DNA from: Paludibacteraceae bacterium
GTDB taxonomy: Bacteria; Bacteroidota; Bacteroidia; Bacteroidales; Paludibacteraceae
Length of the DNA: 64,000 bases
Assembly (NCBI GenBank): GCA_024399955.1
Contig: JAKSNH010000001.1
Coordinates: 186,001 to 250,000 of the forward strand
Reading direction: 5' to 3'
Shown: piece by piece, positions 36,053-54,916 of the stretch
How positions within the stretch are numbered: the first letter of the stretch is position 1
Layout: each line of letters begins with the position of its first letter
Position numbers and translations under genes: made by a program
Notes under the pieces: model-generated
Seen by the model: only the letters and a program-made list of their open reading frames with translations
Told to the model about the DNA's origin: nothing
Database searches by the model: none

Positions 36053-36386
36053 ACAGTAGATTGGTTTGTCGCTTGTTATGGGAAGAAAGCAATTTATTGT
36101 TTAATCCCCTAAGAAGAGGAAAGTCTGGGCACTATAGAGCAGCATAGCGGTTAATGGCCGTCAGGCAGTAATGTTTGGTCCCTGCTACAGAGACGAGTCC
36201 GTTGTTAGCAATAACACGGGGTGAAACGAGCATACTATGTAGTGCAATTCCATGTAAACCTGCGATTGAGGCTTGCTCGGCCAAGCGGGAGGGTAGGAAG
36301 CGATAGAATGACGCAGTAATGCGTTCATCAAGATTAATGACAAACGCACCACAAGGTGTACAGAACCCGGCTTATAAATCTGCTGT
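36053..36386 (+). ncRNA. rnpB: RNase P RNA (class A type)
   Basis: Catalytic RNA that matures tRNA 5' ends. Conserved blocks: GAGGAAAGTCTGGGC at 36116 on (the usual GAGGAAAGTCCGGGC with one change), GGGGTGAAACGAGC, and ACAGAACCCGGCTTA near the 3' end. P1 is formed by ACAGTAGAT (36053-36061) and ATCTGCTGT (36378-36386), followed by a T-run. Its last 15 nt overlap the 3' end of the opposite-strand O-methyltransferase gene. Confidence 0.95.
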
Positions 36387-37013
36387 ATCTTTTTTATGAA
36401 TGATAGTTAGCCCGTCGCGAAGTGGCAAAATAACCTTTTCTAAGTTGTCATTCGCCATGACGGCATCGTTAAAGACGCGCAAGCCTTGTGTTTGTGCGTC
36501 TTTGTCGTAAGCGGGGTCTATGATATGCCCATCCCAAAGCGTGTTGTCCGCTAATATCCAACCTCCCTCGCGTACGTGAGAATATATAAGGTCTAAATAG
36601 ATTGGATACTCCCGTTTATCGGCATCAATAAAAACTAAATCAAAATCGTTCGGAAGAGTAGGGATAATCTCTTTACAGTCACCTAATCTTAGGATAATGT
36701 TTCGAGTATGTTTCGATAATGTTAGGTTTTTGACAATGGTTTCTTGCAGTTCATCATTGTGTTCTATCGTAATCAGCTCACCATCTTCCGCCAGGCCCTC
36801 TGCTAAGCAAAGTGCCGAATAACCGGTGAAAGTACCTAACTCTAAGATGCGTTTGGGACGAATCATTTTACTAAGCATGGATAAGACTCGACCTTGAACT
36901 TGACCGGACAACATATGTGCGTTTAAGATGTGCTGATTGGTGTCACGATTAATCGCATGTAAAAGGGCAGATTCCTGTGAAGAATGTTGCTCAATATAGT
37001 CTTCTATCGTCAT
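36372..37013 (-). CDS. SAM-dependent O-methyltransferase (class I, COMT-like)
   Basis: A 213-aa cytosolic methyltransferase of the caffeoyl-CoA O-methyltransferase-like family 3. SAM motif I is RILELGTFTGYSALCLAEGL, with DLVFIDADKREYPIYLDL (metal-binding Asp) and ILADNTLWDGHI downstream. The methyl acceptor in bacteria (catechol-type compound or tRNA) is not evident. It is transcribed from a promoter interleaved with that of the divergent Lrp gene, and its 3' end overlaps rnpB by 15 nt. Confidence 0.92.
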   Translation of the reverse strand: MTIEDYIEQHSSQESALLHAINRDTNQHILNAHMLSGQVQGRVLSMLSKMIRPKRILELGTFTGYSALCLAEGLAEDGELITIEHNDELQETIVKNLTLSKHTRNIILRLGDCKEIIPTLPNDFDLVFIDADKREYPIYLDLIYSHVREGGWILADNTLWDGHIIDPAYDKDAQTQGLRVFNDAVMANDNLEKVILPLRDGLTIIHKKDTADL

Positions 37014-51466: not shown

Positions 51467-52663
51467 ATGATTTCAAAATTAGTTGCGATTTACTACAAAG
51501 CATTAGAAAATGTTTCTCTTGATTTTACGCGTTATTTGTATGCGCAAATCAATTGGGAAAACCGATTTATTATGATAAAAGGAGCAAGAGGCGTTGGCAA
51601 AACAACGATGTTGCTTCAACATATTCTACGCACATTTCCGGACAAAAGCCAAGCTTTATATGTATCTGTTGATAACTCATGGTTTGCTACTCATTCGATG
51701 GTTGAACTCGCAGAATATGCCACTTCACACGGAATAATGAACCTCTTTTTTGACGAGGTACATAAATATAACCATTGGGATCAACAACTTAAAGAGATGT
51801 ATGACTCGTTCCCTAAATTAAAAGTTGTTGTCACCGGTTCTTCTATGCTTCAATTAGAGACCTGCCAAGCAGACTTAGGTCGCCGTATACGCCAATATAC
51901 ACTACACGGAATGAGTTTTCGAGAATATCTACAATTAGAGGGAGTTGTGTCGTGGCAACCGCTGGAATTGGACAACCTTCTCAAAAACCATTTGTCACTT
52001 GCTGCTAAATTGACCAATGAGCAACCCATCCTTGCATATTTTGAAAAATACCTGCAAGAAGGCTACTATCCATTCTATCGTGAACAAGGTGACGGATTCC
52101 TACAAAGATTAGAAACGAACATCAACAATGTTATCAATGTAGATATCCCTGCGGTGGATAAAACAATCACATACGAATCCGTTTATAAAATGAAGACGTT
52201 ACTTCGCATTCTTGCCGAACAAACCCCTTATACATTGAATATCAACGACTTATCAAAGACATTAAGATGCTCTCGTGATATTGTTTATAAAATGTTTGAC
52301 TTAATGCATCGTGCCGCTCTTATTCGCCGTTTATATACAAAAGAAGGAGGAATGAAAGTGCTTCAAAAGCCGGAAAAGATATTGTTTAATAATACCAATC
52401 TAATGTATGCATTATCACAACAAGTGGATACCGGAACTATGCGTGAAACATTTTTTGCCAATATGCTTGCCGCCAATCATCAGATTTGTATGCCTCAAAA
52501 AGGCGATTTATTCGTCGATGAGAAATACCTATTTGAAGTTGGAGGTAAGAATAAAGATTATGGTCAAATAGCCAATAAAGAAAACAGTTACGTTGTCCGT
52601 GATGGGATTGATATTGGTTGTGAAAATAAAATCCCTCTTTGGATGTTTGGACTGCTTTATTAG
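51467..52663 (+). CDS. DUF4143 family ATP-binding protein, second copy
   Basis: A 398-aa AAA-type protein. Walker A GARGVGKTT at residues 39-47, Walker B LFFDEVHKY near 93, sensor VVVTGSSMLQLE, then an HTH-like region (INDLSKTLRCSRDIVYKMFDLM) and the DUF4143 C-terminus ending in DEKYLFEVGGKNKDYGQIANKENSYVV, where the nuclease-like E.GG/K pattern is visible. It is far more AT-rich than the flanking genes and stands alone between structured non-coding stretches, so it may be horizontally acquired. The leader is about 70 nt. Function unknown. Confidence 0.9.
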   Translation: MISKLVAIYYKALENVSLDFTRYLYAQINWENRFIMIKGARGVGKTTMLLQHILRTFPDKSQALYVSVDNSWFATHSMVELAEYATSHGIMNLFFDEVHKYNHWDQQLKEMYDSFPKLKVVVTGSSMLQLETCQADLGRRIRQYTLHGMSFREYLQLEGVVSWQPLELDNLLKNHLSLAAKLTNEQPILAYFEKYLQEGYYPFYREQGDGFLQRLETNINNVINVDIPAVDKTITYESVYKMKTLLRILAEQTPYTLNINDLSKTLRCSRDIVYKMFDLMHRAALIRRLYTKEGGMKVLQKPEKILFNNTNLMYALSQQVDTGTMRETFFANMLAANHQICMPQKGDLFVDEKYLFEVGGKNKDYGQIANKENSYVVRDGIDIGCENKIPLWMFGLLY

Positions 52664-52684
52664 TTTCTTTCTCTACAATACATC

Positions 52685-52722
52685 AAAGGTCGCTTGGCGT
52701 TTCCGCCCGCGACCTTTTGTTT
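52685..52722 (+). terminator. Terminator of the second DUF4143 gene
   Basis: AAAGGTCGC (52685-52693) with GCGACCTTT (52709-52717), inner GGCG/CGCC, then TTGTTTT. The CCTTTGATG at 52789-52797 can also pair with CATCAAAGG at 52681, so two folds compete. Confidence 0.8.
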
Positions 52723-52735
52723 TATACAGACCAAC

Positions 52736-52968
52736 AAAAAAACGCGGATTCCTGCTCTGCTTATCCGCTAGTTGAGGCCGTAGGAAGCCTTTGATGTCGA
52801 ATAAGCAATTAGAAATCCACGCGTGCGTATATAGAATAATGTATATACACCCATGGACATCTACCACTTACTTGTTTTCGCAAGAGGGACGCTTCCCTCC
52901 CCTCACCCAGCGTGGATTTCGTTATGTTCCCCTATTTAACGTCAGTGGGTGACGTTTTTGCAGTTTTG
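52736..52968 (-). ncRNA. Candidate structured ncRNA with own promoter and terminator
   Basis: About 230 nt on the minus strand. A Bacteroidota promoter (52974-53006) starts it near 52968. From 5' to 3' it can form ACGTCA/TGACGT, a long helix AAATCCACGC/GCGTGGATTT enclosing a hairpin AGGGA/TCCCT and a GTATATA/TATATAC hairpin, and ends in GCGGAT/ATCCGC (52768-52744) followed by seven T. No open frame with coding character was seen across it. It does not match RNase P, tmRNA or 6S in outline. Inferred from sequence only. Confidence 0.6.
52744..52768 (-). terminator. Terminator of the candidate ncRNA
   Basis: Minus-strand GCGGAT, 13-nt loop, ATCCGC, followed by G and seven T (52742-52736). Confidence 0.75.
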
Positions 52969-52973
52969 TGCTG

Positions 52974-53006
52974 CAAAATTACAGAAAAAAAAATGATATA
53001 TGCAAA
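52974..53006 (-). promoter_or_regulatory. Promoter of candidate ncRNA
   Basis: Minus strand: TTTG at 53006-53003, 21-nt spacer, TAATTTTG at 52981-52974. Back-to-back with the ABC permease promoter at 53023-53053. Confidence 0.7.
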
Positions 53007-53022
53007 TATTTCATACAATTAT

Positions 53023-53053
53023 TTTGATATGTCAAAAAAAAAGTGTACCTTTG
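53023..53053 (+). promoter_or_regulatory. Promoter of the first ABC-2 permease gene
   Basis: TTTG at 53023-53026, 19-nt spacer with ATATGTCAAAAAAAAA, TACCTTTG at 53046-53053. The predicted start is about 53059, only a few bases before the ATG at 53063. Confidence 0.85.
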
Positions 53054-53062
53054 CAGCGCGAA

Positions 53063-53950
53063 ATGAGAAATGAGAAAGAAAATATACAGGAAGCCTCCAA
53101 GCACTATTGGAATATCCAGATTTCGCCGAAGGATCACCTTCTGACATTGGATTGGAAGGAGATGTGGCGGTATCGCGATATGTATTGGCTGTTCGTGATG
53201 CGCTCGTTCAAGACCGCGTATAAACAGACTATATTAGGTCCATTGTGGTTCCTTATCACGCCTGTTTTGTCGGTTATCGTGTATGTGGCGGTGTTTGGCG
53301 GTATTGCTAACATCCCTACGGATGGCGTTCCGCCGGCTTTATTCTACTTGTTAGGCATATCGGTGTGGGGCTATTTCGCTTCATGTCTTAGCAGCACCGG
53401 TAACTCGTTCGTGAGCAATGCCGATATATTTGGTAAGGTTTATTTCCCTCGTCTGATTATGCCTTTGGTGGCGGTGACGGTGAATGTGCTCAGTTTCCTT
53501 ATTCAGTTGGCCATCTTCTTTGCCTTCTATATCTACTACCGTATCTATCCTATGGAAGGTATGGCGTTGCAGATGCACTGGCATGTCATTCTATTCCCTA
53601 TACTGATGTTTATCCTGGCCATGATGGCAGTGGGATTCGGTATGATTGTGTCCAGTATGACCACTAAGTACCGCGACCTGCAAATAGCCTTCGCTAAAAT
53701 CATCAGTCTGTGGGTCTATATCACTCCGGTTATCTATCCGTTATCCATGGTAACTAACCCTAAACTGCACTTAGCTATGTCTCTTAACCCCGTTACACCT
53801 ATCATCGAGGCTATCAAGTACTCGCTGTTGGGAGTGGGGCAGTTCTCATGGCTGTGGCTGGGCTATTCGGTGTTGATGACCGCTATTCTGCTTATTATCG
53901 GCTTAATGCTATTCAATAAAGTACAAAAGTCATTCATGGATACAGTGTAG
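53063..53950 (+). CDS. ABC-2 type permease, polysaccharide-export type (copy 1)
   Basis: A 295-aa membrane subunit of the Wzm/KpsM/TagG type, moving glycans or lipid-linked glycans across the inner membrane. The amphipathic start KEMWRYRDMYWLFVMRSFKTAYKQTILGPLWFLITP is typical, followed by six hydrophobic helices; the ISLWVYITPVIYPLSMV block near residue 210 is a family marker. The ATG at 53063 is supported by the family start; upstream residues in the frame are promoter sequence. No ATP-binding Wzt-like partner lies in the window. It is about half identical to the copy at 54038 by eye. Confidence 0.92.
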   Translation: MRNEKENIQEASKHYWNIQISPKDHLLTLDWKEMWRYRDMYWLFVMRSFKTAYKQTILGPLWFLITPVLSVIVYVAVFGGIANIPTDGVPPALFYLLGISVWGYFASCLSSTGNSFVSNADIFGKVYFPRLIMPLVAVTVNVLSFLIQLAIFFAFYIYYRIYPMEGMALQMHWHVILFPILMFILAMMAVGFGMIVSSMTTKYRDLQIAFAKIISLWVYITPVIYPLSMVTNPKLHLAMSLNPVTPIIEAIKYSLLGVGQFSWLWLGYSVLMTAILLIIGLMLFNKVQKSFMDTV

Positions 53951-54037
53951 GGGGGCGTAGAGCGTAGAGCGTTGAACGTTTAGCGTTTAGAGTTGATTAT
54001 TGTATATTGCATATTGTATATTGCTAATTGCTAATTG
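53951..54037 (+). repeat. Spacer made of short repeats between the two permease genes
   Basis: The 87-nt gap starts with AGCGTAGAGCGTTGAACG type units and ends with GTATATTGCATATTG and CTAATTG units running into the ATG at 54038. The AT part matches 9184-9213 in the inverse orientation, and the first part resembles the 2279-2314 spacer in the inverse orientation. Confidence 0.7.
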
Positions 54038-54916
54038 ATGATAGATAAAGATATAAATAGTACTGGGGTGCCTAACGGCACCTGGACGACGGTGATTTCG
54101 CCGAAGGAGCGTCATCGTGGTTTAGGGCTGAAGGAGGTTTGGCAGAAGCGGTATCTGTTGTGGCTCTTTGTGAAAAGAGACATAACGGTGCAGTTCAAAC
54201 AAACCATCTTCGGTATGGGCTGGTACTTTATCTCGCCGCTTTTCTCTACGATTATCTATATGGTGGTGTTTGGACGCATCGCCTCTATTCCTACCGACGA
54301 TATTCCGCAGCCGATTTTCTACCTGAGTGGCGTGTGCCTATGGGAGTATTTCTCGCTATGTCTAACATCTGTCTCTACTACTTTCCAAACCAATTCAGGA
54401 CTATTTGGTAAGGTCTATTTCCCCCGATTAGTGACACCGCTCTCCGTTTGTATAGGTAAACTCTTCCGCTTTGGATTGCAACTCAGTACATTCGTTATTG
54501 TCTATATCTACTTTGTGCTACGTGGAGTGCATCTATGCCCCAACTGGTACTTGCTGCTCTTCCCCGTTATCGTGGCTTGTATGATAGGCATCGCCATGGG
54601 ATTAGGATTGATGGTATCCAGTATGACCACTAAGTACAAGGATCTGGTGAATTTCTTCCCAACCTTTGTATCACTATGGATGTACGCCACACCTATTGTC
54701 TATCCGCTCAGTTACGTCACTAATCCCACCTTGCATCAAGTGATGCTGCTCAATCCCATGACCCCGCTCGTGGAAGCCTTCAAATACGGCGCTTTCGGTG
54801 CAGGATCATTCTCGTGGATGAGCTTCGGTTATGCAGTGCTATGCACGATTATCTTGCTTGTGATAGGTATAGCGATGTTCAATCGCAAGCAGAAATTCTT
54901 TATTGACACTATCTAA
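54038..54916 (+). CDS. ABC-2 type permease, polysaccharide-export type (copy 2)
   Basis: A 292-aa paralogue of the preceding gene: KEVWQKRYLLWLFVKRDITVQFKQTIFGMGWYFISPLFS at the N-terminus, GKVYFPRLV in the middle and VSLWMYATPIVYPLSYVTNPTLHQVMLLNPMTPLVEA near residue 210. Each copy is followed by a family-typical helix pair. Two different permeases in tandem could form a heteromeric transporter or serve separate substrates. ATG at 54038 follows a TTG at 54035; there is no cognate ATPase gene next to it. Five bases separate it from the DUF2851 gene. Confidence 0.92.
   Translation: MIDKDINSTGVPNGTWTTVISPKERHRGLGLKEVWQKRYLLWLFVKRDITVQFKQTIFGMGWYFISPLFSTIIYMVVFGRIASIPTDDIPQPIFYLSGVCLWEYFSLCLTSVSTTFQTNSGLFGKVYFPRLVTPLSVCIGKLFRFGLQLSTFVIVYIYFVLRGVHLCPNWYLLLFPVIVACMIGIAMGLGLMVSSMTTKYKDLVNFFPTFVSLWMYATPIVYPLSYVTNPTLHQVMLLNPMTPLVEAFKYGAFGAGSFSWMSFGYAVLCTIILLVIGIAMFNRKQKFFIDTI

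Follow-up and report, generated by a model that had tools for sequence, protein, structure and literature searches.

A decayed copy of a multicopy, structured Bacteroidales leader RNA, likely a conditional transcription terminator, in a Paludibacteraceae genome

In a 64,000-nucleotide stretch of a Paludibacteraceae genome (hereafter, the window), we found a minus-strand unit that is likely a decayed copy, probably without function, of a leader RNA that is conserved and multicopy in Bacteroidales and acts in cis as a conditional transcription terminator. The family is large, multicopy, absent from Rfam, and previously unlisted; no description of it was found in the open-access papers searched. 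Bacteroidales are the dominant members of many gut and rumen communities, with surface glycans and secreted proteins that vary. A leader family upstream of such surface functions would form a second, RNA-based layer of control beside the UpxY proteins of Bacteroides with a trigger open to direct testing, and would supply a missing annotation in many genomes.

A structured minus-strand RNA unit in the window

The original prediction described a Bacteroidota promoter on the minus strand followed by strongly self-complementary DNA ending in a hairpin plus seven T, and both sequence and folding confirmed it. The predicted promoter (52974-53006, minus strand) combines a -33 box, TTTG (53006-53003), with a -7 box, TAATTTTG (52981-52974), which are of the Bacteroidota -33/-7 type and place the expected transcript start near 52967. 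About 230 nt without a gene lie between this promoter and the hairpin with its seven T. Folded over 241 nt, the window RNA has a minimum free energy (MFE) of -78.5 kcal/mol as compared to -59.4 ± 4.6 kcal/mol in dinucleotide shuffles (z = -4.17), and its fold was matched or beaten by 0 of 200 shuffles. The remaining RNA unit (52736-52967, minus strand) was assigned to the leader family as a deleted copy by this fold and by its match to covariance model R1 (G000:C1:238737-238946(-), 91.1 bits, E 8e-24).

All parts of the unit are on the minus strand. The closing helix P1, which is kept in family copies, has its 5' strand, GAAATCCACGC, at 52910-52920, and the predicted 10-bp helix AAATCCACGC/GCGTGGATTT is exact at 52910-52919 and 52813-52822. 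The 5' strand of P1 competes with the terminator and with helix P4 for 52811-52822. Further along, alignment with two sister copies (C6 and C1:297388) places a deletion junction at 52873-52880, where a single CGAAAACA is left. The 5' strand of P4, AGATGTCCAT (52853-52862), has its partner at 52811-52820, and the 5' arm of the terminator, CGTGGATTTCT (52811-52821), is an alternative partner in both P1 and P4; this arm was placed by the MFE fold, by covariation on pairs outside the model, and by folding of the 3' part alone. An inner terminator stem, ANTI, follows with its 5' strand GCTTATTCG at 52798-52806 (91% paired with covariation in alignment A6) and its 3' strand CGGATAAGC at 52759-52767, also supported by covariation. 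Between these lie three orphaned 3' strands whose partners are deleted in the window copy, namely those of helices INN (ACATCAA, 52791-52797), MID (TTCCTACG, 52779-52786), and OUT (TCAACTAG, 52768-52775). The 3' arm of the terminator, AGGAATCCGCG (52743-52753), was placed by covariation and by folding of the 3' part alone, and the U-run of seven T (52736-52742) comes directly after the stem arm.

The AAA_14/DUF4143 ATPase gene on the plus strand (51467-52663; Pfam AAA_14, E 1.2e-27) lies outside the unit and is an incidental convergent neighbour. Cross-talk with this gene had been proposed through CATCAAAGG (52681-52689) and CCTTTGATG (52788-52796), but the two segments are inverted copies of each other within a single strand; CAUCAAAGG is present in both the ATPase mRNA and the minus-strand RNA, which therefore cannot pair with each other through it. 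On the other side, two ABC-2 type exporter permease genes (53000-54916) start divergently from the RNA promoter, whereas in a relative (L056) a similar permease pair lies upstream of the RNA and on the same strand, which suggests a rearrangement in the window.

The unit is not RNase P RNA, tmRNA, or 6S RNA, as had been predicted, since it has no Rfam match, and a bacterial RNase P RNA of class A is encoded elsewhere in the window (36053-36390, plus strand).

A large RNA family outside Rfam

A 19-nt core of the RNA is found at 77 loci in one-per-species genomes. These are named uncultured Bacteroidales or Paludibacteraceae, or Candidatus Colicola or Colivivens, with one record labelled Pseudobutyrivibrio, and they come from rumen, horse, and other herbivore guts. 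Model R1 was built from 75 copies of the window's subfamily in a plain MAFFT alignment (A2). It matches 148 of 151 congeneric genomes, 63 of 295 sampled genomes across Bacteroidales, and 10 of 392 in a sample of the phylum, seven of which belong to other orders of the same class (Bacteroidia). The window's own genome has matches in 20 places, the window copy (91 bits) among them. The leader RNA is about 190-330 nt long, and a compact form of about 190 nt makes up about a third of the diverse sample. Plasmids gave no match to the family, while viral contigs gave four pattern matches, two of them only weak matches to the model.

Scans with Rfam models found no match at the RNA in the window or at 45 loci with related copies (E up to 0.5-1), including no known aptamer and no EAR/epsC (RF01735) or JUMPstart (RF01707) element. 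The check suggested with the original prediction, a covariance search and comparative folding in relatives, thus returned no Rfam match, and it yielded a large and strongly covarying family. The proposal of a new ncRNA was even understated as regards a structured RNA outside Rfam on the minus strand, but its stand-alone nature found no support, since the relatives are same-strand leaders.

Some copies have other RNA elements or repeats nearby. DUF805b (RF02914) lies between the leader terminator and the next gene at L005:1896-1930 (G000:C1, about 297783-297817), so that leader and DUF805b are two RNA elements in tandem; it also occurs beside copies at L174:1038-1073 and L207:1451-1485, one of these below the gathering score. 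An abiF RNA (RF03085) is found near a distant leader copy (L177:939-975). At L055 (G006:C2), a repeat of about 100 nt, itself dispersed in many congeneric genomes, is inserted in the variable 5' loop of the leader.

Covariation of the conserved helices

In alignment A2, three long-range helices were recognized, OUT (columns 61-68/265-272), MID (71-77/255-261), and INN (96-102/238-245). Pairing over thirty pairs, with the inner stem counted in, is 97.3% as compared to 34-46% in slid controls, and double-change cells number 447 against 134 ± 10 in shuffles. In A6, which represents the diverse set, OUT, MID, INN, and P4 (123-131/214-222) are 97.5% paired with double changes in 30 of 30 pairs and 1047 double-change cells (299 ± 18 in shuffles), and P4 has 96.9% of its cells paired with double changes in all 8 pairs; since A6 rows were aligned with a model containing these four helices, all these counts lean towards their pairs. 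A2 is free of this bias. The terminator stem (213-218/294-299) and ANTI (229-236/274-281), whose pairs are absent from the model used to build the alignment, reach 91.1% pairing, and 11 of their 14 pairs have changed on both sides. A local 5-bp terminator stem (273-277/293-297) was rejected as poorly conserved (66%), and the long stem 213-223/289-299 was adopted instead.

When the sequence is read as RNA, the pairs admit G-U and not A-C, for example CG51/UG35 and CG45/UG42 in P4. This one-stranded tolerance of G-U argues for selection on RNA. Two nearly invariant dinucleotides, GG at 248-249 and CC at 263-264, lie on either side of MID3'. The variable 3' segment covaries in cis with an upstream segment through the INN helix, and its reading as a variable guide was rejected.

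Two competing folds

The 3' part, folded alone, gives a terminator hairpin. Its stem stops no more than 2 nt from the U-run in 75 of 75 copies of the window's subfamily and in 83 of 86 diverse copies, with energies of -33.6 and -32.4 kcal/mol, respectively, as compared to -18.4 and -21.1 kcal/mol in shuffled sequences. Local terminator stems are predicted in 12 of 83 copies. The alternative is a rod made of OUT, MID, INN, and P4, which uses the 5' arm and the loop strands of the terminator: the loop strands OUT3', MID3', and INN3' covary with the upstream strands OUT5', MID5', and INN5', and the terminator 5' arm covaries with P4. Judged by strand overlap and geometry, the rod and the terminator would be mutually exclusive and would not coexist as a pseudoknot.

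The two folds have equal average energies in the window's subfamily (-90.1 and -90.9 kcal/mol). There, the copies divide about evenly into those whose full-length MFE structure is the rod and those for which it is the terminator, and the rod appears in nearly all when the RNA is cut before the terminator 3' arm. This even balance is confined to the window's subfamily; in diverse subfamilies the full-length RNA favours the rod by about 16 kcal/mol, with the rod as MFE in 90 of 95, so that a switch in these copies would depend on help or on kinetics.

Position, downstream genes, and alternative explanations

The leaders keep a fixed orientation to genes. The nearest downstream open reading frame is on the same strand for 64 of 72 copies of the window's subfamily and for 89 of 92 diverse copies, at median distances of 45 and 70 nt, and the upstream genes are much less strand-biased (50/69 and 25/35). 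A Bacteroidota promoter box pair lies upstream of 61 of the 72 related copies, as compared to 1.5 expected in shuffles. This position just upstream of a same-strand gene argues against a family of stand-alone, trans-acting sRNAs, in which the terminated RNA of about 230-330 nt would itself be the product and would pair with distant mRNAs. Such a family would be consistent with the own promoter and terminator, with the many copies, and with the very stable full-length rod of most subfamilies; its model would be FopS, paralogous sRNAs of Bacteroides deposited in Rfam, in which a single-stranded 5' seed is followed by one terminator hairpin and which act in trans on susC mRNAs (PMC11697453). FopS resembles our family in being multicopy in Bacteroidales and linked to glycans. 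However, the leaders differ from the simpler FopS in fold and covariation and lack the layout of a 5' seed plus one hairpin; their hypervariable segments covary mutually in cis rather than serving as free seeds, and no conserved unpaired seed comparable to that of FopS (PMC11697453) was found. We consider this explanation improbable and prefer the cis-acting leader.

The window's subfamily leads surface-polysaccharide operons. Among the first and second downstream genes, glycosyltransferase family GT2 was found in 18 of 135 as compared to 2 of 136 upstream (Fisher p = 1.3e-4), GtrA was found nine times downstream and never upstream, and DegT, FdtA, GLF, LicD, and MBOAT are also among the enriched surface-polysaccharide families; NusG is absent from the families listed for these genes. 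Other copies in the window's genome stand ahead of signal-peptide proteins, BspA-type LRR proteins, and radical-SAM-peptide clusters, and across the order the leaders precede secreted, lipoprotein, LRR, and radical-SAM-peptide genes, as well as some restriction and methylase genes. The downstream genes are functionally diverse and so point to no single ligand.

Surface-polysaccharide operons are also the cargo of known processive antitermination systems, and the leader could be an element of this kind, like EAR/epsC or JUMPstart-ops, that recruits an elongation factor with which the polymerase passes terminators in long glycan operons. UpxY/RfaH-type antitermination relies on a specialised NusG paralogue of the same genome, whose gene is usually the first of its operon. 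A NusG match was found in 55 of 61 genus genomes, exactly one in 51 of these 55 and more than one in four, and the window's genome encodes one NusG-domain protein. Paralogues of the UpxY type are thus nearly absent, which leaves no obvious dedicated factor, and dependence on UpxY/NusG was rejected. Both JUMPstart and EAR/epsC are RNA elements known from such operons, and EAR/epsC, from Bacillales, is a structured RNA that sits in exopolysaccharide operons and affects the elongation of transcription (PMC2864571). It belongs to a different phylum, and our family differs from it in ending in its own terminator and in also serving non-glycan genes. The Bacteroides UpxY proteins control surface-polysaccharide operons, in whose untranslated region they keep transcription from terminating prematurely (PMC9409006). 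JUMPstart/ops with RfaH and UpxY share with the leader the control of surface-polysaccharide operons, but they need a NusG paralogue, while the leader is a long-range folded RNA of 190-330 nt. In addition, the leader's terminator sits within the element, which captures its arms, and many copies precede single short secreted-protein genes. Antitermination of this kind is therefore an unlikely account of the family.

The dispersed copies, the diverse cargo, the deletions, and the flanks shared between copies could also suggest a DNA-level element such as a transposon end, a recombination site, or a REP/MITE-like repeat, but pairs kept through many double changes and G-U (not A-C) on one strand, the presence of a promoter and a terminator, the constant orientation relative to the gene, and the lack of a transposase trend among the neighbours make this very improbable. 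A retron, a transposon guide, or another RNA-guided system, as prompted by the many copies and variable segments, was likewise rejected, with no trend for reverse transcriptase or transposase among the neighbours of copies. Genes of RhuM, AbiEii, Fic, and DUF4143 type recur upstream of or beside copies (e.g., L043, L046, L048, L049, and L051), and the loci concerned resemble hot spots of defence or toxin–antitoxin genes.

A possible mechanism

The leader family probably decides between an early stop and the continuation of transcription into the gene. An intrinsic terminator shortly upstream of a gene, as expected of an attenuator, is present in the family and not at the window locus. A competing conserved fold, likewise expected, is seen in the covariation on both folds and in the bistable energies of the window's subfamily, and its competing strands are deleted in the window copy. 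Terminator/antiterminator leaders of the riboswitch or T-box kind likewise have two competing folds, one of which is an intrinsic terminator located shortly before the first gene; our family differs from them in its lack of a known aptamer, its diverse cargo, and a rod of OUT, MID, INN, and P4 unlike any Rfam family.

In the mechanism that we propose, the first strands to fold in the nascent RNA would be the upstream ones (P3/LOC), and the emerging 3' strands would then either capture these upstream strands, giving the rod and read-through, or pair mutually, giving the terminator. If the rod forms first, the polymerase would pass; if the upstream strands are kept in hairpins of their own (P3/LOC) by a ligand, a protein, a pause, or a folding delay, the terminator would form and the gene would be off. 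Termination, read-through, any trigger, and the direction of the switch are all inferred. More tentatively, and with somewhat more doubt than belief, one may see here an order-wide class of RNA switches, with up to 20 copies per genome under one shared signal, that sets the variable surface and secreted repertoire and replaces UpxY-type proteins where these are absent.

Deletion and decay of the window copy

Two close further copies in the same genome (G000:C6:6887-7260 and G000:C1:297388-297753) were found by genome search, and both carry about 126 nt in the middle of the RNA that are missing from the window copy. The C6 copy has two CGAAAACA repeats (8-bp direct repeats) about 126 nt apart, of which the window copy keeps one. 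The missing segment is the most conserved part of the leader RNA and holds OUT5', MID5', and INN5', each the 5' half of a conserved long-range helix. With these strands deleted, only the terminator fold is possible, and the window copy is probably locked in termination, as far as its sequence tells. The terminator at the window locus is followed by no same-strand gene, its next neighbour being convergent. We take the window copy to be a decayed relic that is probably non-functional.

Across the orthologous DUF4143 gene and its terminator, a sister genome (G050, locus L010) shows 97% identity, but its RNA is cut down to the first ~65 nt fused to the U-run. The expectation that homologous loci conserve the paired positions was borne out overwhelmingly in the family, but not by the window copy, without its 5' halves, or by the G050 locus, without almost the whole RNA. 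The window and C6 copies have 219 nt in common at 100%, including the ATPase terminator, which points to recent exchange or copying between loci. At the C6 copy, a HigB/HTH toxin–antitoxin pair with the same shared terminator (L038:6056-6819) stands in place of the window's DUF4143 gene, and glycan genes lie about 1 kb beyond this pair.
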